Below, piece by piece: positions 5,399 to 38,671 of a stretch of 64,000 nucleotides of DNA. The stretch's first letter is position 1. Each line of letters opens with the position of its first letter. Under the pieces are notes generated by a model. It did not search any database. It had not been told where the DNA came from and saw only the letters and a list, made by a program, of their open reading frames with translations. The DNA lies in contig JAIBCC010000021.1 in assembly GCA_019694395.1 (NCBI GenBank), forward strand, positions 1 to 64,000, read 5' to 3'. The position numbers and the translations under genes were made by a program. The stretch comes from Pyrinomonadaceae bacterium. Its GTDB lineage: Bacteria > Acidobacteriota > Blastocatellia > Pyrinomonadales > Pyrinomonadaceae.

Positions 5399-5573
5399 GC
5401 CGTTGAAAACGGCGGCATTTTTGTAGCCCGCAATGCTAATTGTGGGTTTTAGATAACGGCATAAATTTATCAAATTAATTTTATGTCGTCGTTTTCAACG
5501 ACTCAAATATCTTATTCGCAATTTTCCCATAGTTTGCAATATGGGCTACAAATATTTCGCTGTTTTCAACAGC
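5399..5573. repeat. REP/BIME-like palindromic element
   Basis: Two similar modules face each other. Module 1 has the hairpin GCCGTT-GAA-AACGGC (5399-5413), then TTTGTAGCCC, then a second hairpin CCCGCAAT/ATTGTGGG (5427-5446). Module 2 on the opposite strand has GCTGTT-GAA-AACAGC (5559-5573), then TTTGTAGCCC, then the hairpin CCCATA/TATGGG (5526-5545). Between them is a third hairpin GTCGTT-TTC-AACGAC (5488-5502). Arm sequences differ but pairing is kept. No coding sequence is present between 5375 and 5648. It resembles REP/BIME elements mobilised by RAYT transposases; none is in the window. Confidence 0.75.
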
Positions 5574-8819: not shown

Positions 8820-8888
8820 AACTTGCTTTCAGTTCAGAATAAAATTATATTCTTATTTCCCCAATGATTTTAACATTCGGCTCCAAAA

Positions 8889-11858
8889 ATGCACGTTACT
8901 ATACGGCAAATATTTATTAGCTTTTTCTGGGGATTAGTTCTTTTTCTGTCTGCTAATGCTGAAATTACGCCTTTGCGTCTCTTTCAGACACAATGGACAA
9001 TCGAAAACGGATTACCCCAGAGTGGTGTAACTTCGCTTGCCCAAACCAAAGACGGTTACTTATGGATCGGAACTTTCGGCGGTTTGGCACGGTTTGACGG
9101 CGTTCGCTTCAAAATCTTTAACACCTCTAATGCTCCGCAACTTAAAACCAGCCGTATTATCAGTTTAGCCGTAGATAAAGAAGATCGTCTGTGGATCGGA
9201 ACTGAGGTCGGTGACGTAATTACTTATAAAAACGGGCAATTCAAAACAGTTGATACCGGTGAAAATTACGGGCGCGAAATGGTCAACGATATTTATGTTG
9301 ACGATACCGGAGTAGTTTGGATTAGTGGCTTTGGCGGTGCGCGAAACTGCACCGATCAAGGTTGCCAAAGAGTAGATTTTCCAAAAGCAAATTTATGGAT
9401 GATTAGAAAAGATTTGGATGGGAATGTTTGGGGAGTTGCAGATTGTAAACTTTATCGTCAGATTAACGGGCAATTTGTCGTTGATGAGAACTTAAAACAA
9501 AAGGCGTGCAGTTTAGAAACAAATAGAGACGGCGGACTTTGGATAGGCGGGTTGGACGAACTTGGAATCTATCAAAACGGTAATTACTCTACGGTTTTGA
9601 AATACGAAAAACCATTCAATATAATGGCAATGGCATACTCTCCTCAGGGTGAATTTTGGTTCAATATTCGGGATTTAATTTATCGTATTGGCAAGGACAA
9701 AATTGAAAGTTATAAGATCAAAAATGTAACTGCCTACTCCCGGCAAATACTTTTTGATAAAGAAGGAAATCTTTGGAATGGTCGTAATGTAGATGGTTTG
9801 TTTCGTCTCATCCCGCAACGGGTAGAAACACTTGTGATAGAAAGAGAAGATAAATTTTTGGGCAATCAGGCAGTGCCGATCAATTCTATTGCCCAGGATA
9901 ATCAAGGCGATGTCTGGTTATCCAGTCACATTGGTTTATACCGCTGGCACGATGGCAAAGTAGAAAAATTAACGGATACTTCGGATAATTCGATGAATAT
10001 GCCGAGAGGTCCGATCTTATTTGATAAAGACGGAGTTGGCTGGAGTTTAACTACCGAAGGTGTGCAGAGTTTTCAAGACGGAAAATTTACCTTACACCCG
10101 GACTTAATCGAAGAAAAAGAAGCAGGCGGCGGCAGTTTATTTGAAGACAGTAAAAAACAACTCTGGTATAGCTGCGATGATTGCGGAGTTTATGTTTCCG
10201 ATAAACAAAAAGTTATTGCAAAATACAGCAAAGAAAACGGATTGATCGAAAACAACATCAATGCCATTTATGAAGCCAAAGACGGTTCAATGTGGTTTGC
10301 GACTGAAAGCGGTGTCAGTCAGCTAAAAGATGGAGTTTTTCACAATTACACGACTGAAAACGGATTATCCGCAGGTTCGGTCAGAGATATTTATCAGGAC
10401 AAAAATGGTTCTCTCTGGTTTGGAACTTACGGAGGCGGTTTAAGCCGGTTTCGGGATGGTAAATTCAATTCAATTACTTCCCGGAATGGGCTTTATGATG
10501 ATGTGGTTTCCCGTATTTTGATTGACGAGGACGAAGATTTCTGGATGTTGGGAAATCGCGGTATCTTTTACGTTAATCGTCAGGTTCTGGATGATTTTGT
10601 CGAAGGTCGGGTCAAAAGAGTGTATTGCGGGGGTTATACGACCAATGACGGTCTGACCACCAACGAAGGTAACGGCGGTTATCAGTGGGCAGGATTAAAG
10701 GCTCAAGACGGTAAGCTATGGTTTCCAATGATCAATGGTGTAGCAATAATTGATCCGAATAAGAAAAAACTGTCTCCTCCGACTCCTTTAGTCGAAGAAG
10801 TTGCGACAGAAGAGCGTGAATTGAACTTAACAAATAAAATTGACCTTTATCCCGGAGATGAGGATTTGCAAATTCATTACACCGGAATCAGTTTTCATAA
10901 ACCTGAGCAGATTCAATTCAGATATCGGTTATTAGGATTTGACGATAAAGAGATTTGGGAAGAAGTCGGCACCCGCCGCACCGCCTATTATGCCAAGATC
11001 CCTCCCGGACATTTTCGCTTTCAGGTTATTGCCTCTAATGCGGATGGTATTTGGAGTGAAAACATTGCCGAAATTGAGATAATTGTCCATCCGCCCTTTT
11101 ATCAAACCTGGTGGTTTTATATTTTGGTAGGACTGACGGTCTGCTTATTCTTATATTGGTTATATCGCCGGAGAATGACCAGACTTATTCTTGAAAAAGA
11201 ATTAGGAGAAGCCTTTTCACGAAAATTGATATTGGCTCAGGAAGCGGAACGAAGCCGGATTGCAGCGGAAATTCACGACAATCTGGGACAACAGCTTTTG
11301 ATAATTAAAAACTGGGCTGGATTTTGTTTAGCAAAGATTTCAAAAACAAGTAAAATTCGTGAACAGCTTACTCAAATAAATTCGACTGCCGATATAGCCT
11401 TAAATGAAGTGCGTTCGTTGGCTAAAAATCTCAGTCCGCATCATCTGGAAAAAGTAGGACTTACTAACACTATCCGTTTTATGGTTAAACAAATCGCCGA
11501 ATCTTCTCAAATCAATTTTCAAACGGAAATTGATGAAATTGATGGCAGTTTGCCCAAAGAGAGTGAAATAAATCTTTACCGGATCGTGCAGGAATCCGTC
11601 AATAATATTGTCAAACATTCTCAAGCTAAAAATGCAAAAGTCAGATTGAAAAAAAGCCAAAGCGGAATCCAACTGAGTATTTCAGATGACGGTATTGGTT
11701 TTCACGTTATGGATACTAATAACCAGAATTTCGGAACGGGATTAAACGGAATCAAGGAGCGTTCCAATTTATTAGGCAGTAATTTATCCATTAAATCAGT
11801 TCCAACCGTTGGGACTGAAATCAATTTGGAGATAAAAACAGTTAAATACTCTATATGA
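8889..11858 (+). CDS. Sensor histidine kinase with periplasmic beta-propeller
   Basis: 989 residues. A signal or anchor sequence is followed by about 650 residues of two-component-regulator propeller repeats, each with a motif such as GYLWIGTFGGLARFDG, GSMWFATESGVSQ or GSLWFGTYGGGLSRFR. A Y_Y_Y-type domain (about 660-735) leads into one transmembrane helix (WWFYILVGLTVCLFLYWLY, about 741-760). The cytoplasmic part has a HisKA_3 box (AEIHDNLGQQL, His near 795) and a HATPase domain (SDDGIGF, GTGLNGIKERSNLLGS). This is the one-piece sensor class that usually detects polysaccharide breakdown products, but no carbohydrate genes lie nearby. Its stop overlaps the start of the response regulator by four bases (ATGA), so the pair is translationally coupled. 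Confidence 0.93.
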   Translation: MHVTIRQIFISFFWGLVLFLSANAEITPLRLFQTQWTIENGLPQSGVTSLAQTKDGYLWIGTFGGLARFDGVRFKIFNTSNAPQLKTSRIISLAVDKEDRLWIGTEVGDVITYKNGQFKTVDTGENYGREMVNDIYVDDTGVVWISGFGGARNCTDQGCQRVDFPKANLWMIRKDLDGNVWGVADCKLYRQINGQFVVDENLKQKACSLETNRDGGLWIGGLDELGIYQNGNYSTVLKYEKPFNIMAMAYSPQGEFWFNIRDLIYRIGKDKIESYKIKNVTAYSRQILFDKEGNLWNGRNVDGLFRLIPQRVETLVIEREDKFLGNQAVPINSIAQDNQGDVWLSSHIGLYRWHDGKVEKLTDTSDNSMNMPRGPILFDKDGVGWSLTTEGVQSFQDGKFTLHPDLIEEKEAGGGSLFEDSKKQLWYSCDDCGVYVSDKQKVIAKYSKENGLIENNINAIYEAKDGSMWFATESGVSQLKDGVFHNYTTENGLSAGSVRDIYQDKNGSLWFGTYGGGLSRFRDGKFNSITSRNGLYDDVVSRILIDEDEDFWMLGNRGIFYVNRQVLDDFVEGRVKRVYCGGYTTNDGLTTNEGNGGYQWAGLKAQDGKLWFPMINGVAIIDPNKKKLSPPTPLVEEVATEERELNLTNKIDLYPGDEDLQIHYTGISFHKPEQIQFRYRLLGFDDKEIWEEVGTRRTAYYAKIPPGHFRFQVIASNADGIWSENIAEIEIIVHPPFYQTWWFYILVGLTVCLFLYWLYRRRMTRLILEKELGEAFSRKLILAQEAERSRIAAEIHDNLGQQLLIIKNWAGFCLAKISKTSKIREQLTQINSTADIALNEVRSLAKNLSPHHLEKVGLTNTIRFMVKQIAESSQINFQTEIDEIDGSLPKESEINLYRIVQESVNNIVKHSQAKNAKVRLKKSQSGIQLSISDDGIGFHVMDTNNQNFGTGLNGIKERSNLLGSNLSIKSVPTVGTEINLEIKTVKYSI

Positions 11859-12505
11859 AAGAAATAAAAGTTTTTATTGCAGATGATCATCCTGTTTTCC
11901 TGAGCGGATTACAGATGATACTGGAAACAGACAAACAACTGAAAGTAATTGGAGCCTCTGAGTCAGGCAAAGAGGCAATAGAAGAAATTGAAAATCTGAA
12001 GCCCGATGTTGCCGTGTTGGATTTAGGAATGCCCGATGCCAATGGCTTTGAGGTCGTTCGAGCGTTGCAAGAAAAAGAAATGGAAATGAATTTTATTTTT
12101 CTTACTATGCACGATGAGGAAGCAACCCTTAATTCTGCTCTGGATCTGGGAGTAAAAGGCTATATTTTGAAAGACACGGCAATTTCCGAAATTATTAGTG
12201 CTATAAAATTAGTGGCTAAAGGGAAAAACTATATAACCCCGAAACTTTCAACTTATCTCATCAATCGAAATCAAAGTCCGAAAAGCTTTCTGCCGAACTT
12301 TGAAAAAATAACCTTAACCGAAATGAAAATTTTGAATCTGATAGCAGAACATAAAACTACCAAGGAAATAGCAAAAGAGCTTTTTGTCAGCCGCCGCACG
12401 GTAGACCGTCATCGGTATAACATTTGCGTCAAATTAAATATCCGGGGAATTAATTCCTTAGTCAAATTTGCTATCGAAAACAAATCTAAATTTAATTTGA
12501 ATTAG
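11855..12505 (+). CDS. NarL/LuxR-family response regulator
   Basis: 216 residues. The receiver domain has the acidic pair ADDH at residues 9-12, the phospho-acceptor Asp56 in VAVLDLGMPDANG and the conserved lysine in YILKDTA. A LuxR-type helix-turn-helix occupies about residues 148-212 (LTEMKILNLIAEHKTTKEI, SRRTVDRHR). It is the cognate partner of the upstream propeller kinase, given the four-base overlap. Direct targets are unknown; dyads AATAAG-N8-CTTATT just downstream (12532-12551 and 12942-12961) are possible binding sites. Confidence 0.95.
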   Translation: MKEIKVFIADDHPVFLSGLQMILETDKQLKVIGASESGKEAIEEIENLKPDVAVLDLGMPDANGFEVVRALQEKEMEMNFIFLTMHDEEATLNSALDLGVKGYILKDTAISEIISAIKLVAKGKNYITPKLSTYLINRNQSPKSFLPNFEKITLTEMKILNLIAEHKTTKEIAKELFVSRRTVDRHRYNICVKLNIRGINSLVKFAIENKSKFNLN

Positions 12506-12526: not shown

Positions 12527-12580
12527 AAGAAAATAAGTATTATTGCTTATGTAAAATGGGTATCCTTTTCTATTTCCAAA
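12527..12580. repeat. 54-bp direct repeat, copy 1
   Basis: This segment is 40/54 identical to 12914-12967, with no gaps. It contains the dyad AATAAG-N8-CTTATG (12532-12551). It lies just downstream of the response regulator, within a 51-codon open frame (ATG 12524 to stop 12679) that lacks a good ribosome site. It opens the first of two related intergenic modules. Confidence 0.7.
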
Positions 12581-12677
12581 ACAATCTATTCTTGTGAAAA
12601 TATTCTTGTAACTGAAGTTTTTTGCCGTAAATTCGGTAATTTACAAGTGTCATCGTATTTTTCTAATTACAAATATT

Positions 12678-12713
12678 AAATCAGTTTCAGAAGTAAACTG
12701 ATTTTAGTTTTTA
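12678..12713 (+). terminator. Rho-independent terminator after kinase/regulator operon
   Basis: A perfect 10-bp stem, AAATCAGTTT (12678-12687) with AAACTGATTT (12695-12704), and a 7-base loop, followed by TTAGTTTTT. It lies 172 bases after the response-regulator stop and probably ends that transcript. A smaller hairpin, GTAAATT-CGGT-AATTTAC, precedes it at 12627-12644. Confidence 0.65.
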
Positions 12714-12771
12714 AAAGTTAAAGTTCTAAGGTAGTTATTTGAGAGTTAAAAGAAAAAAAGTAAAGCAAAAT

Positions 12772-12891
12772 TCGAAGCCATTCTCCTGGTTTCGATTTAT
12801 TGGGCAAGTCTTTTAGTGAAAACAACTTATTGAAAATCCTAAATCATTGGGGGGGTTTTTAATAAATTCATAAAAAGATTTGCCCGTTTTT
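12772..12891 (+). ncRNA. Candidate structured RNA, module 1
   Basis: A 9-bp hairpin (TCGAAGCCA 12772-12780 with TGGTTTCGA 12787-12795) is followed after a few bases by a long basal stem: GGGCAAGTCTTTT (12802-12814) pairs with AAAAGATTTGCCC (12873-12885) with one G-U. Inside it, ATTGAAAATCC (12829-12839) pairs with GGGTTTTTAAT (12853-12863) around a loop containing CATTGGGG. A run of five T follows at 12887-12891. The same architecture with different stem sequences occurs in module 2, which suggests selection on structure. Direction is inferred from the T-run. No homologue is known to me. Confidence 0.4.
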
Positions 12892-12913
12892 AATGCCGTC
12901 AGATAAAAATCAC

Positions 12914-12967
12914 AAGAAAATAAGCATCATTATTTACGTAAAATAAGCAAGATTACTTATTTCCAAA
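12914..12967. repeat. 54-bp direct repeat, copy 2
   Basis: Second copy of the 12527-12580 repeat, opening the second intergenic module. It carries a weakened dyad (AATAAG-N8-TTTACG, 12919-12938) and a perfect dyad AATAAG-N8-CTTATT (12942-12961). In the frame of the 51-codon open frame of copy 1, three of the first five differences are synonymous third-base changes, yet this copy has an in-frame TAA, so it is not intact as a gene. Confidence 0.7.
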
Positions 12968-13233
12968 TCTCAAAATTAATTTAAAATTCATAAGGGGTTT
13001 AGGAAATAGATCTAATTGTAAATTTATCTCTCGAATCCCATTACTATAGTAGTCTTTGTTTAAGTGAAAAGTTTTAATTGATTAATTAGACAGCCAAAAT
13101 GAGTGCTTTCAGCGATTAGAATAAAGAAAGTTGAACTGAGAGATTGAATGGACTTATTTTAGTGATTCTTGAACTTGTCGTAGTTATTGTTTAATTAAAT
13201 TTTTAAGAGTTTTCACTGATTTTACACAAATTG

Positions 13234-13365
13234 TTGGAGCCCGGTAAGTTTTTGCTCTAACGAAGTGGGCAAAAGTAAATTCGAAGTAATTCAGTAGAAC
13301 TCAATATTGGGGGAGTTTTATTAAGGAATTAAACTGTTGATTAGACTTTTGCCCACAAATTTTTT
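13234..13365 (+). ncRNA. Candidate structured RNA, module 2
   Basis: Same plan as module 1. A short hairpin TTGGAGC (13234-13240)/GCTCTAA (13254-13260) is followed by an 11-bp perfect basal stem TGGGCAAAAGT (13266-13276)/ACTTTTGCCCA (13345-13355). Inner stems are AATTC/GAATT (13288-13292, 13326-13330) and AGAACTC/GAGTTTT (13296-13302, 13313-13319) around the loop AATATTGGGG. Six T follow at 13360-13365. The shared parts are the GGGCAA/TTGCCC base and the ATTGGGG loop; the paired bases between them differ but still pair. It ends on the stop codon of the convergent DCC gene, so it may also serve that gene's end. Confidence 0.4.
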
Positions 13366-13756
13366 AAGTTAAAAATCTTTGGCGAATTTCAGGCGTGGGT
13401 AACATACACGCCTCTTTTTTTCCAAACAAACGATAACGATTTGCCGCAAATAATTTATAGAAAAGATTCCTGATTGGTCGCGGAATAATAACAAAAACAT
13501 AACCCAGCGACCAAATTCCATCCAAATGTTTCGCAATTCTTAAAGCCGCCGTCGAATGCGTAAAAGCCTGCTCATCCTCTACTAAAATAATTGAATCTAC
13601 CTCGTTTAATCCAAATTTTTCAATATATTTCTGACCGGTTTCAGACTGCAGAGGAGCAAACTTAAAATAGCCTTTTTTGTCGTGCTCAATAATAAAATTG
13701 ACCGAGCCGTTGCAAAAATTACACACACCGTCGAATAAAATAATCGGATTTGCCAT
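13364..13756 (-). CDS. DCC-family thiol-disulfide oxidoreductase-like protein (DUF393)
   Basis: 130 residues. The N-terminus IILFDGVCNFCNGSVNFI is the defining DxxCxxC motif of the DCC/YuxK family, a thioredoxin-like fold expected to carry out thiol-disulfide chemistry. The C-terminal part keeps the family segment ending in RNLFYKLFAANRYRLFG. The length matches the family. It is a single gene, convergent with the intergenic modules to its left and divergent from ada. Substrate unknown. Confidence 0.88.
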   Translation of the reverse strand: MANPIILFDGVCNFCNGSVNFIIEHDKKGYFKFAPLQSETGQKYIEKFGLNEVDSIILVEDEQAFTHSTAALRIAKHLDGIWSLGYVFVIIPRPIRNLFYKLFAANRYRLFGKKEACMLPTPEIRQRFLT

Positions 13757-13813: not shown

Positions 13814-13924
13814 ATCCACGAAGCAGCACAAAGGCTTCACGAAGATAAATAGAGGAAACCAATGATTGAAAATGGTTTAATAAATAAAAAAATCTTCGTG
13901 TTTTCTTCGTGAAACTTAGTGGAT
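13814..13924. repeat. Inverted repeat of CACGAAG-type units
   Basis: ATCCACGAAG...CTTCACGAAGAT at the left is answered by ATCTTCGTG...CTTCGTGAAAC...GTGGAT at the right, giving an imperfect palindrome in the divergent gap between the DCC gene and ada. Related TTCGTG/TTCGCG runs occur at 15017-15079 and 40090-40135. It overlaps the region where the ada promoter must lie. Confidence 0.65.
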
Positions 13925-37531: not shown

Positions 37532-38305
37532 ATGGAATTAGTAGATTTTGAGAAAAATTCACCTGAGAGCGGCGGCGGCTTACGTTTAGTTGCAGATAAT
37601 AAAGAACTTCACCAATTTCCCGTTATTCAAAAGCAATTTGTCAGTTTTATTTTCTTTCGGGTAAATCCTGAATTCAGAAAACTTAATGGCGAAAATAAAG
37701 CACTTTACAAAGCTCAGTTTGAAGAGGTTTTTAATCAATACGAAAAAGATCTTTTGCTTTTTACCTACTCACTGGTCGGTTTTGATTCAAAAGCTGATTT
37801 AATGTTTTGGCGCATCGGAAATTCTCTGGATCTGATTCAGGAAATGACTTCAAATCTTTATCGCACCGAATTAGGCTCTTTTTTGGAAACTACCGATAAT
37901 TATTTAGCAACCACTAAGAAAAGAATGTTTATTGCGCCGAACAGTTTCAATAATCAGGAAGACCGTTTTCACATCACGGCGGGCGAGAAAAAATATCATT
38001 TTGTTTATCCGTGCGCCAAAAACCGCGAGTGGTATGACAAAACCAGTGAGGAACGCGAAAGTCTGATCGAAGAAAATTTTATGGTCGGAACAAAATTTCG
38101 CAATATCAAAATTCACCTGACTCATGCTTTCGGATTTAGCGAAAAGGAATTTATTGTCAGTTTTGAAACCGATGAGCCGAAAGATTTTCTGGCACTGGCA
38201 GAGGAATTAAGCCAAACCCAGGCGAACAAATTCAACTTGCGCGGAATGCCGATTTATACTTGCCGGCAAAGAAGTTTAGCAGAATGTTTGGATGCGATTG
38301 GGTAG
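37532..38305 (+). CDS. Chlorite-dismutase/HemQ-family protein
   Basis: 257 residues from ATG 37532. Matches the chlorite-dismutase-like fold: a first half with YSLVGFDSKADLMFWRIG and RMFIAPNSF, and a second half with IHLTHAFGFSEKEFIVSFE, where the His in HAFG is placed as the proximal haem ligand. The family includes chlorite dismutase and the coproheme decarboxylase HemQ (ChdC) of haem synthesis. Other haem genes are not nearby, so the reaction is open. An upstream ATG at 37448 (28 more residues) is possible, but it leaves only 37 bases to the divergent gene, and neither start has a clear ribosome site. Confidence 0.82.
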   Translation: MELVDFEKNSPESGGGLRLVADNKELHQFPVIQKQFVSFIFFRVNPEFRKLNGENKALYKAQFEEVFNQYEKDLLLFTYSLVGFDSKADLMFWRIGNSLDLIQEMTSNLYRTELGSFLETTDNYLATTKKRMFIAPNSFNNQEDRFHITAGEKKYHFVYPCAKNREWYDKTSEERESLIEENFMVGTKFRNIKIHLTHAFGFSEKEFIVSFETDEPKDFLALAEELSQTQANKFNLRGMPIYTCRQRSLAECLDAIG

Positions 38306-38390
38306 AAAGTTCGGGAAGTTTAGAAAGTTTTGGAAGTTGGGGACAAAGTTACTCTTCCTAAACTTCCAAAATTTTCTAAACTTCCAAAAC
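38303..38390. repeat. Nonamer repeat array with inverted arms
   Basis: Left arm: TAGAAAGTT, CGGGAAGTT, TAGAAAGTT, TTGGAAGTT (38303-38338). Right arm: TTCCTAAAC, TTCCAAAAT, TTTCTAAAC, TTCCAAAAC (38355-38390). The first unit supplies the stop codon of the chlorite-dismutase-family gene and the last ends six bases before the acylphosphatase ATG. Same family as 18260-18345. Confidence 0.8.
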
Positions 38391-38395
38391 TAAAA

Positions 38396-38671
38396 ATGAA
38401 AGTTGCACGGAAATTTACAATCAGAGGTTTAGTTCAAGGGGTCGGGTTCCGTTTTTTTACACAGCGTTCGGCGGCGCGGCATCAGGTTTTGGGGTATGTG
38501 CGAAATTTACCCAACGGAAATGTCGAAGCCTACGCCGAAGGAAGTGCGGAAACCGTCGAAGGATTCAAGCAGGATTTGACTGCCGGACCGACTTATTCGG
38601 TGGTTGAAGAGATCGAAGAAATAGTTTTAGAGCCAACCGGCTTATATTCATCATTTAGAATCGAAAAATAA
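38396..38671 (+). CDS. Acylphosphatase
   Basis: 91 residues, the standard length. Signature RGLVQGVGFRFFTQRSA carries the catalytic arginine (GVGFR), and GYVRNLPNGNVEAYAEG carries the catalytic asparagine. It hydrolyses acyl phosphates in the cytoplasm. ATG 38396 begins the conserved domain; the open frame extends to 38330 only through repeat sequence. No ribosome site is visible because the nonamer array runs up to the start. Confidence 0.93.
   Translation: MKVARKFTIRGLVQGVGFRFFTQRSAARHQVLGYVRNLPNGNVEAYAEGSAETVEGFKQDLTAGPTYSVVEEIEEIVLEPTGLYSSFRIEK

Follow-up and report, generated by a model that had tools for sequence, protein, structure and literature searches.

We identified, directly behind a two-component operon, what are probably two tandem small-RNA genes under the direct control of that neighbouring system, each ending in a long hairpin whose G-rich loop would probably pair with C-rich mRNA sites, with the leader of the kinase mRNA as the best candidate. 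This reading draws on an operator grammar linked to regulator genes, stable plus-strand hairpins, recurrence at three loci and a 12-nt antisense match, all read directly from the sequence. In the window (the whole stretch of 64,000 nucleotides that was analysed), the operon encodes a propeller-type histidine kinase and a NarL/LuxR-type response regulator (Table 1). Between this operon and a convergent DCC1-like gene (13364-13756) lie about 860 bases in which, as the sequence-only reading had described, no gene is convincing; an ORF check likewise found no convincing ORF in either of the two modules that they contain. In a distant relative (G071), the orthologous locus consists of MutS2, the kinase (49% identity), the regulator (64% identity), a spacer and DCC1. 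A scan of the regulator protein against the contigs of the source genome returned distant receiver domains only.

Table 1. Positions of the features discussed, in coordinates of the window (dG, predicted folding energy; z, relative to shuffles)
Feature	Position	Strand	Basis and remarks
Candidate target site in kinase leader, CCCCAATGATTT	8859..8870	+	Sequence match; exact antisense of module-1 apical loop
Two-component regulator propeller histidine kinase	8889..11858	+	Pfam Reg_prop, Y_Y_Y, HisKA_3, HATPase_c
NarL/LuxR-type response regulator, presumed activator of both modules	11855..12505	+	Pfam Response_reg and GerE
Tandem operator 1, TAAGTATTATTGCTTA-N7-TGGGTATCCTTTTCTA	12534..12572	+	Score 18/20; conserved behind G071 regulator
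Module 1 promoter-like TTTCCA-N17-GAAAAT, weak -10	12573..12601	+	Alignment of three operators; sequence inspection
Small hairpin 1, 9 bp	12772..12795	+	dG -11.8, z -4.4
Long hairpin 1, apical loop AAATCATTGGG, T5 at 12887-12891	12802..12885	+	dG -33.6, z -6.0; minus strand -20.9
Tandem operator 2, TAAGCATCATTATTTA-N7-TAAGCAAGATTACTTA	12921..12959	+	Score 19/20
Module 2 promoter-like TTTCCA-N16-TAAAAT	12960..12987	+	G071 has TTTTCA-N17-TATAAT at same place
Small hairpin 2, not significant	13235..13259	+	dG -5.3, z -0.1
Long hairpin 2, loop AATATTGGGG, T6 at 13360-13365	13265..13356	+	dG -34.6, z -6.7; minus strand -22.7
Intrinsic-terminator-like hairpin AGGCGTG...CACGCCT + T7	13391..13421	+	Fold dG -11.7; within 3' end of convergent DCC1-like gene

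Each module was said to open with a 54-bp repeat, and this description holds: positions 12527-12580 and 12914-12967 are identical at 40 of 54 bases with no gaps, and local alignment of one module against the other scored 71 (shuffles: mean 42.8, maximum 64). The conserved bases are those of two tandem 16-bp palindromes, TAAGYA-N4-TRYTTA-N7-TRMGYA-N4-TWYYTA, the first being TAAGYA-N4-TRYTTA and the second lying 23 bp further on; they are followed by a -35-like TTTYCA box and, 16-17 bp on, by a -10-like hexamer. The palindromes and the -35-like box mark the repeat as most likely a DNA operator/promoter element and not part of the RNA structure. A coding reading of the repeat (MKKISIIAYVK...) was rejected, given a stop in module 2, no start in G071, and palindromes that account for the conserved bases.

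The same element lies directly behind the regulator stop codon in G071 (78% to copy 2 and 74% to copy 1, E = 3.5e-7), where the spacer outside the operator gave no convincing alignment to the window. A degenerate 50-bp operator pattern, searched in 162 genomes of the class, matched only the two modules of the window and the site behind the orthologous regulator of G071 (controls: 0); since the pattern was built from those three sites, this result shows absence elsewhere. With a relaxed pattern, the same layout with different half-site letters was found in relatives. When operators were scored as two 6-4-6 sites with the half-site shape T[AG]NG[CT]A, at most 400 nt after the regulator stop, tandem palindromes were present in 20 of 74 distinct stretches behind related response-regulator genes (0.1 in shuffles) and then in 20 of 110 (0.0 in shuffles). 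The period among loci scoring at least 18 was 23 bp in 14, 24 bp in 4 and 22 bp in 2, with any other period (16-39) in at most 2. Because the tandem palindromes are tied to regulator genes, do not arise in shuffles and show a sharp 23-bp optimum, the repeat is most likely the operator of the adjacent regulator, which would bind there. We know of no operators characterised for propeller-kinase regulators of this lineage.

Co-oriented ORFs follow 17 of the 20 operators, and 11 of these ORFs begin, by reading, like a stand-alone receiver domain; such a position is the one expected of a promoter element. The other three operators sit before a noncoding stretch, in the window, at the orthologous locus of G071 (L145) and at G000:C13 (L110), a second propeller-kinase/regulator operon of the source genome, whose operator has by inspection a period of 33 bp (TGAGTAGTTTTACTTA ... 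TGAGTAGTTTCACCTA). Regulator-specific tandem palindromes are also seen right behind many NarL-type regulators of the class, and the gene that they precede is most often one for a stand-alone receiver domain (L035, L044, L048, L102, L106, L108, L167, L168, L180, L182, L187, L191, L194, L200, L214, L216 and others).

At their other end, both modules close with the long hairpins and T-runs noticed earlier, which are far more stable than their shuffles and favour the plus strand (Table 1). The common ATTGGGG loop is present in both hairpins, as is the GGGCAA/TTGCCC base, a pattern that was found nowhere beyond the two window copies. The small hairpin reported for each module is well supported in module 1 and at chance level in module 2; a kissing interaction of the C-rich small-hairpin loops with the G-rich loop was set aside, as small hairpin 2 is not significant. 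Paired changes preserving the pairing, also claimed, are something that two copies cannot show; the stems outside base and loop are unalignable, RNAalifold found 2 of 19 pairs changed on both sides, and strict covariation is not established. Several other sites of the window fold equally well or better, so that stability by itself does not set the module hairpins apart. The more stable ones include 38291-38400 (dG -44.5, strong on both strands) and 5401-5510 (dG -41.2).

A long hairpin with an apical [CT]TGGGGG motif occurs at all three loci that combine the operator with a noncoding stretch, giving a family of four hairpin copies (apical loops TTGGGGGGG and TTGGGGGAG in the window, CTGGGGGC in G071 and TTGGGGGGGA in G000:C13). 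Among the 95 distinct [CT]TGGGGG sites in the approximately 858 kb examined, 7 lie within a hairpin of at least 28 pairs, namely the four family copies and three others, one behind a distant G071 regulator without the operator (L252), one away from regulators (L217) and one in a GC-rich stretch (L028). From these three others, the chance expectation is about 0.0016 such hairpins per 900 nt, and one at each of two loci picked by regulator and operator alone is therefore unlikely by chance. The sense strand of the regulator is favoured in all four hairpins (sense/antisense dG of -37.1/-27.5 in G071 and -34.1/-28.7 in G000:C13; window values in Table 1). The sequence-only reading had asked whether copies track with propeller-kinase/regulator pairs, and they do so at one orthologous (G071) and one paralogous (G000:C13) locus. 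A model of the two window copies, such as had also been suggested, recovered neither of these hairpins. A MAFFT alignment of all four hairpins was not achieved, and no profile connects the four copies. The 218-297 nt that separate operator and hairpin, the body of the RNA, showed no conservation between the modules or with G071, BLAST of the whole region gave only noise outside the locus, and BLAST and the pattern found a single locus in the genome. Of the sequence-only reading, which proposed tandem small RNAs or cis-acting leader/terminator elements under the adjacent regulator, the noncoding tandem units tied to the regulator stand, with a structure kept as the sequence drifts; what recurs of that structure is only the long stem and its [CT]TGGGGG loop.

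Some neighbouring elements were noted separately. The L252 hairpin of G071 (L252:820-890) has a TTTTTGGGGGC loop and lies behind a distantly related regulator (31% identity), with the tandem operator absent; a G010 hairpin with a TTTGGGGGAG loop (L016/L217) was set aside, being away from any regulator. Between the DCC1-like and Ada genes of the window, an imperfect inverted repeat with CTTCGTG/CACGAAG words spans 13836-13915, and the G071 spacer holds a similar CGTGTTTT-rich inverted repeat, perhaps a dispersed one. Past the G071 hairpin (L145, spacer positions ~525-562) there is a short tandem repeat, GATTTCG, with similar units elsewhere in G071 and in other genomes (BLAST).

The long hairpins might serve only as 3' end elements, whether long terminators or stems that stabilise the mRNA, for the regulator operon and for short leader-like transcripts, in which case the G-rich loop would be incidental. 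A GC-rich base and the T-runs that begin at 12887 and 13360 would fit such a role, as would the strong hairpins elsewhere in the window and the readiness with which G runs pair with U on RNA. However, at each of the three loci (behind module 2 in the window, and in both G071 and G000:C13) the last long hairpin is followed by a further hairpin that resembles a terminator and has a T-run of its own, which indicates that the long hairpins are probably not simply terminators; the window stems are of about 30 pairs with loops of 10-11 nt, and loci picked without regard to the loop again show [CT]TGGGGG there. As for intrinsic-terminator features, the U-run adjoins hairpin 1 and is 3 nt away from hairpin 2, and a terminator scan was passed by small hairpin 1 alone. 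We consider this explanation unlikely.

Less likely still is that the operators formerly drove protein genes, of which the modules are decayed remnants and the hairpins leftovers. The 17 co-oriented genes behind the 20 operators examined, 11 of them with a receiver-like start, are what such an origin would lead one to expect, and in G071 a 58-aa ORF with a hydrophobic C-terminus (L145:3176-3352, minus strand) separates the operator from the hairpin, so that the G071 transcript may be coding. This ORF, however, has no Pfam match; the module interiors, with dense stops and no ORF, have no similarity in any frame to the proteins behind the other operators, and two independent loci, as well as a tandem copy, have retained both operator and hairpin. 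An origin of the hairpins as small mobile palindromes of the MITE/REP type that landed behind the regulator is very improbable: although they are inverted repeats with identical GGGCAA/TTGCCC ends, they are confined to one locus of the genome by BLAST and by pattern, no target duplications were seen, and the fold energy favours one strand through G-U pairs. Known RNA families offered no assignment either, as the earlier reading had anticipated: the Rfam 15 covariance models detected only two tRNAs in the window, and no match at the L145, L110 and L115 hairpins even at E 0.5. Literature searches turned up nothing relevant to operators of propeller-type regulators or to small RNAs of Acidobacteria.

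If the modules encode small RNAs, as we favour, a candidate target lies in the same operon. Over 12 nt, the module-1 apical loop (AAATCATTGGGG, 12841-12852) is exactly antisense to CCCCAATGATTT, within the 70-nt stretch before the kinase start. Genome-wide, the 12-mer has 3 occurrences (the kinase leader, the module-1 loop and one inside a coding gene), the last being the one antisense site to the module-1 loop besides the leader. The expected number of such matches in a 110-nt leader is about 2e-5, to be corrected perhaps tenfold as the match was spotted by eye. By duplex energy, the kinase 5' region ranked in the best 0.2% of the background for module 1, 3.9% for module 2, 5.5% for G000:C13 (predicted pairing site CCCCCCAA, at codons 3-4 of the kinase) and 41% for G071, a spread that makes the target idea uneven. 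We thus regard the kinase leader as a good lead in the case of module 1 and as a weak one elsewhere.

The arrangement resembles GacS/GacA (BarA/UvrY) with RsmY/RsmZ (CsrB/CsrC), in which a NarL/FixJ-type regulator controls two small-RNA genes by binding a palindrome that lies upstream of them; in our case the binding and the RNAs are predictions. The published GacA/UvrY site, TGTAAG-N6-CTTACA, lies upstream of csrB/csrC and rsmY/rsmZ (PMC4682653, PMC4353343). TAAG/CTTA is common to its half-sites and those of the window operator, whereas the window has N8 between TAAG and CTTA, palindromes doubled at 23 bp beside the -35 box, and RNA units directly behind the regulator. A CsrA-sponge role of the CsrB/RsmY type was rejected: no CsrA family member (PF02599) was found in the genome, which is 88.8% complete (controls positive), and GGA motifs number none in module 1 and five, scattered, in module 2. 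The best reading is of regulator-activated small RNAs whose wiring, and not whose mechanism, would be like that of GacA-RsmY/Z. Two other systems are comparable in part, QseF (GlrR) being of a regulator type different from that of the window and the GcvB and MicA genes not being known to lie behind the regulator gene. The small RNA GlmY of QseF (GlrR) adjoins its controlling two-component genes, a likeness of gene arrangement, but lies upstream of its operon and is co-transcribed with it (PMC8745638), unlike the units behind the window regulator. GcvB and MicA, both Hfq-dependent, repress the phoPQ mRNA (PMC3536696), a case of small RNAs acting on a two-component mRNA, as proposed for the predicted pairing of the module-1 loop.

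In the mechanism that we propose, the propeller kinase would phosphorylate the NarL-type regulator. Dimers of the regulator would then occupy the two palindromes with which each module opens, in contact with the -35 box, and would switch on noncoding RNAs of about 290 and 370 nt. The functional end of each RNA would be the long stem presenting the G-rich apical loop [CT]UGGGGG, which would probably pair with C-rich mRNA sites; with the kinase's own leader as the best candidate, this would close a feedback loop. Binding and activation by the regulator, like the ends of the transcripts, their pairing and the sign of the regulation, are inferred. Overall, the case for the operators is strong; three loci support what is a small RNA family, and the mechanism is one that we propose.

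A pair of 6-4-6 palindromes spaced at 23 bp provides a simple, readable code that ties many propeller-kinase regulators of the lineage to a neighbouring target, and the modules behind the window regulator represent a candidate small-RNA group, previously undescribed, with a concrete, testable candidate target in the kinase mRNA. More speculatively, and on balance doubtfully, these systems may form a new two-component feedback RNA class, in which the dedicated target of the regulator is a small-RNA pair encoded behind it, with a G-rich loop antisense to the 5' end of the kinase mRNA that tunes the level of the sensor. If so, each system would have its own operator letters and its own loop.
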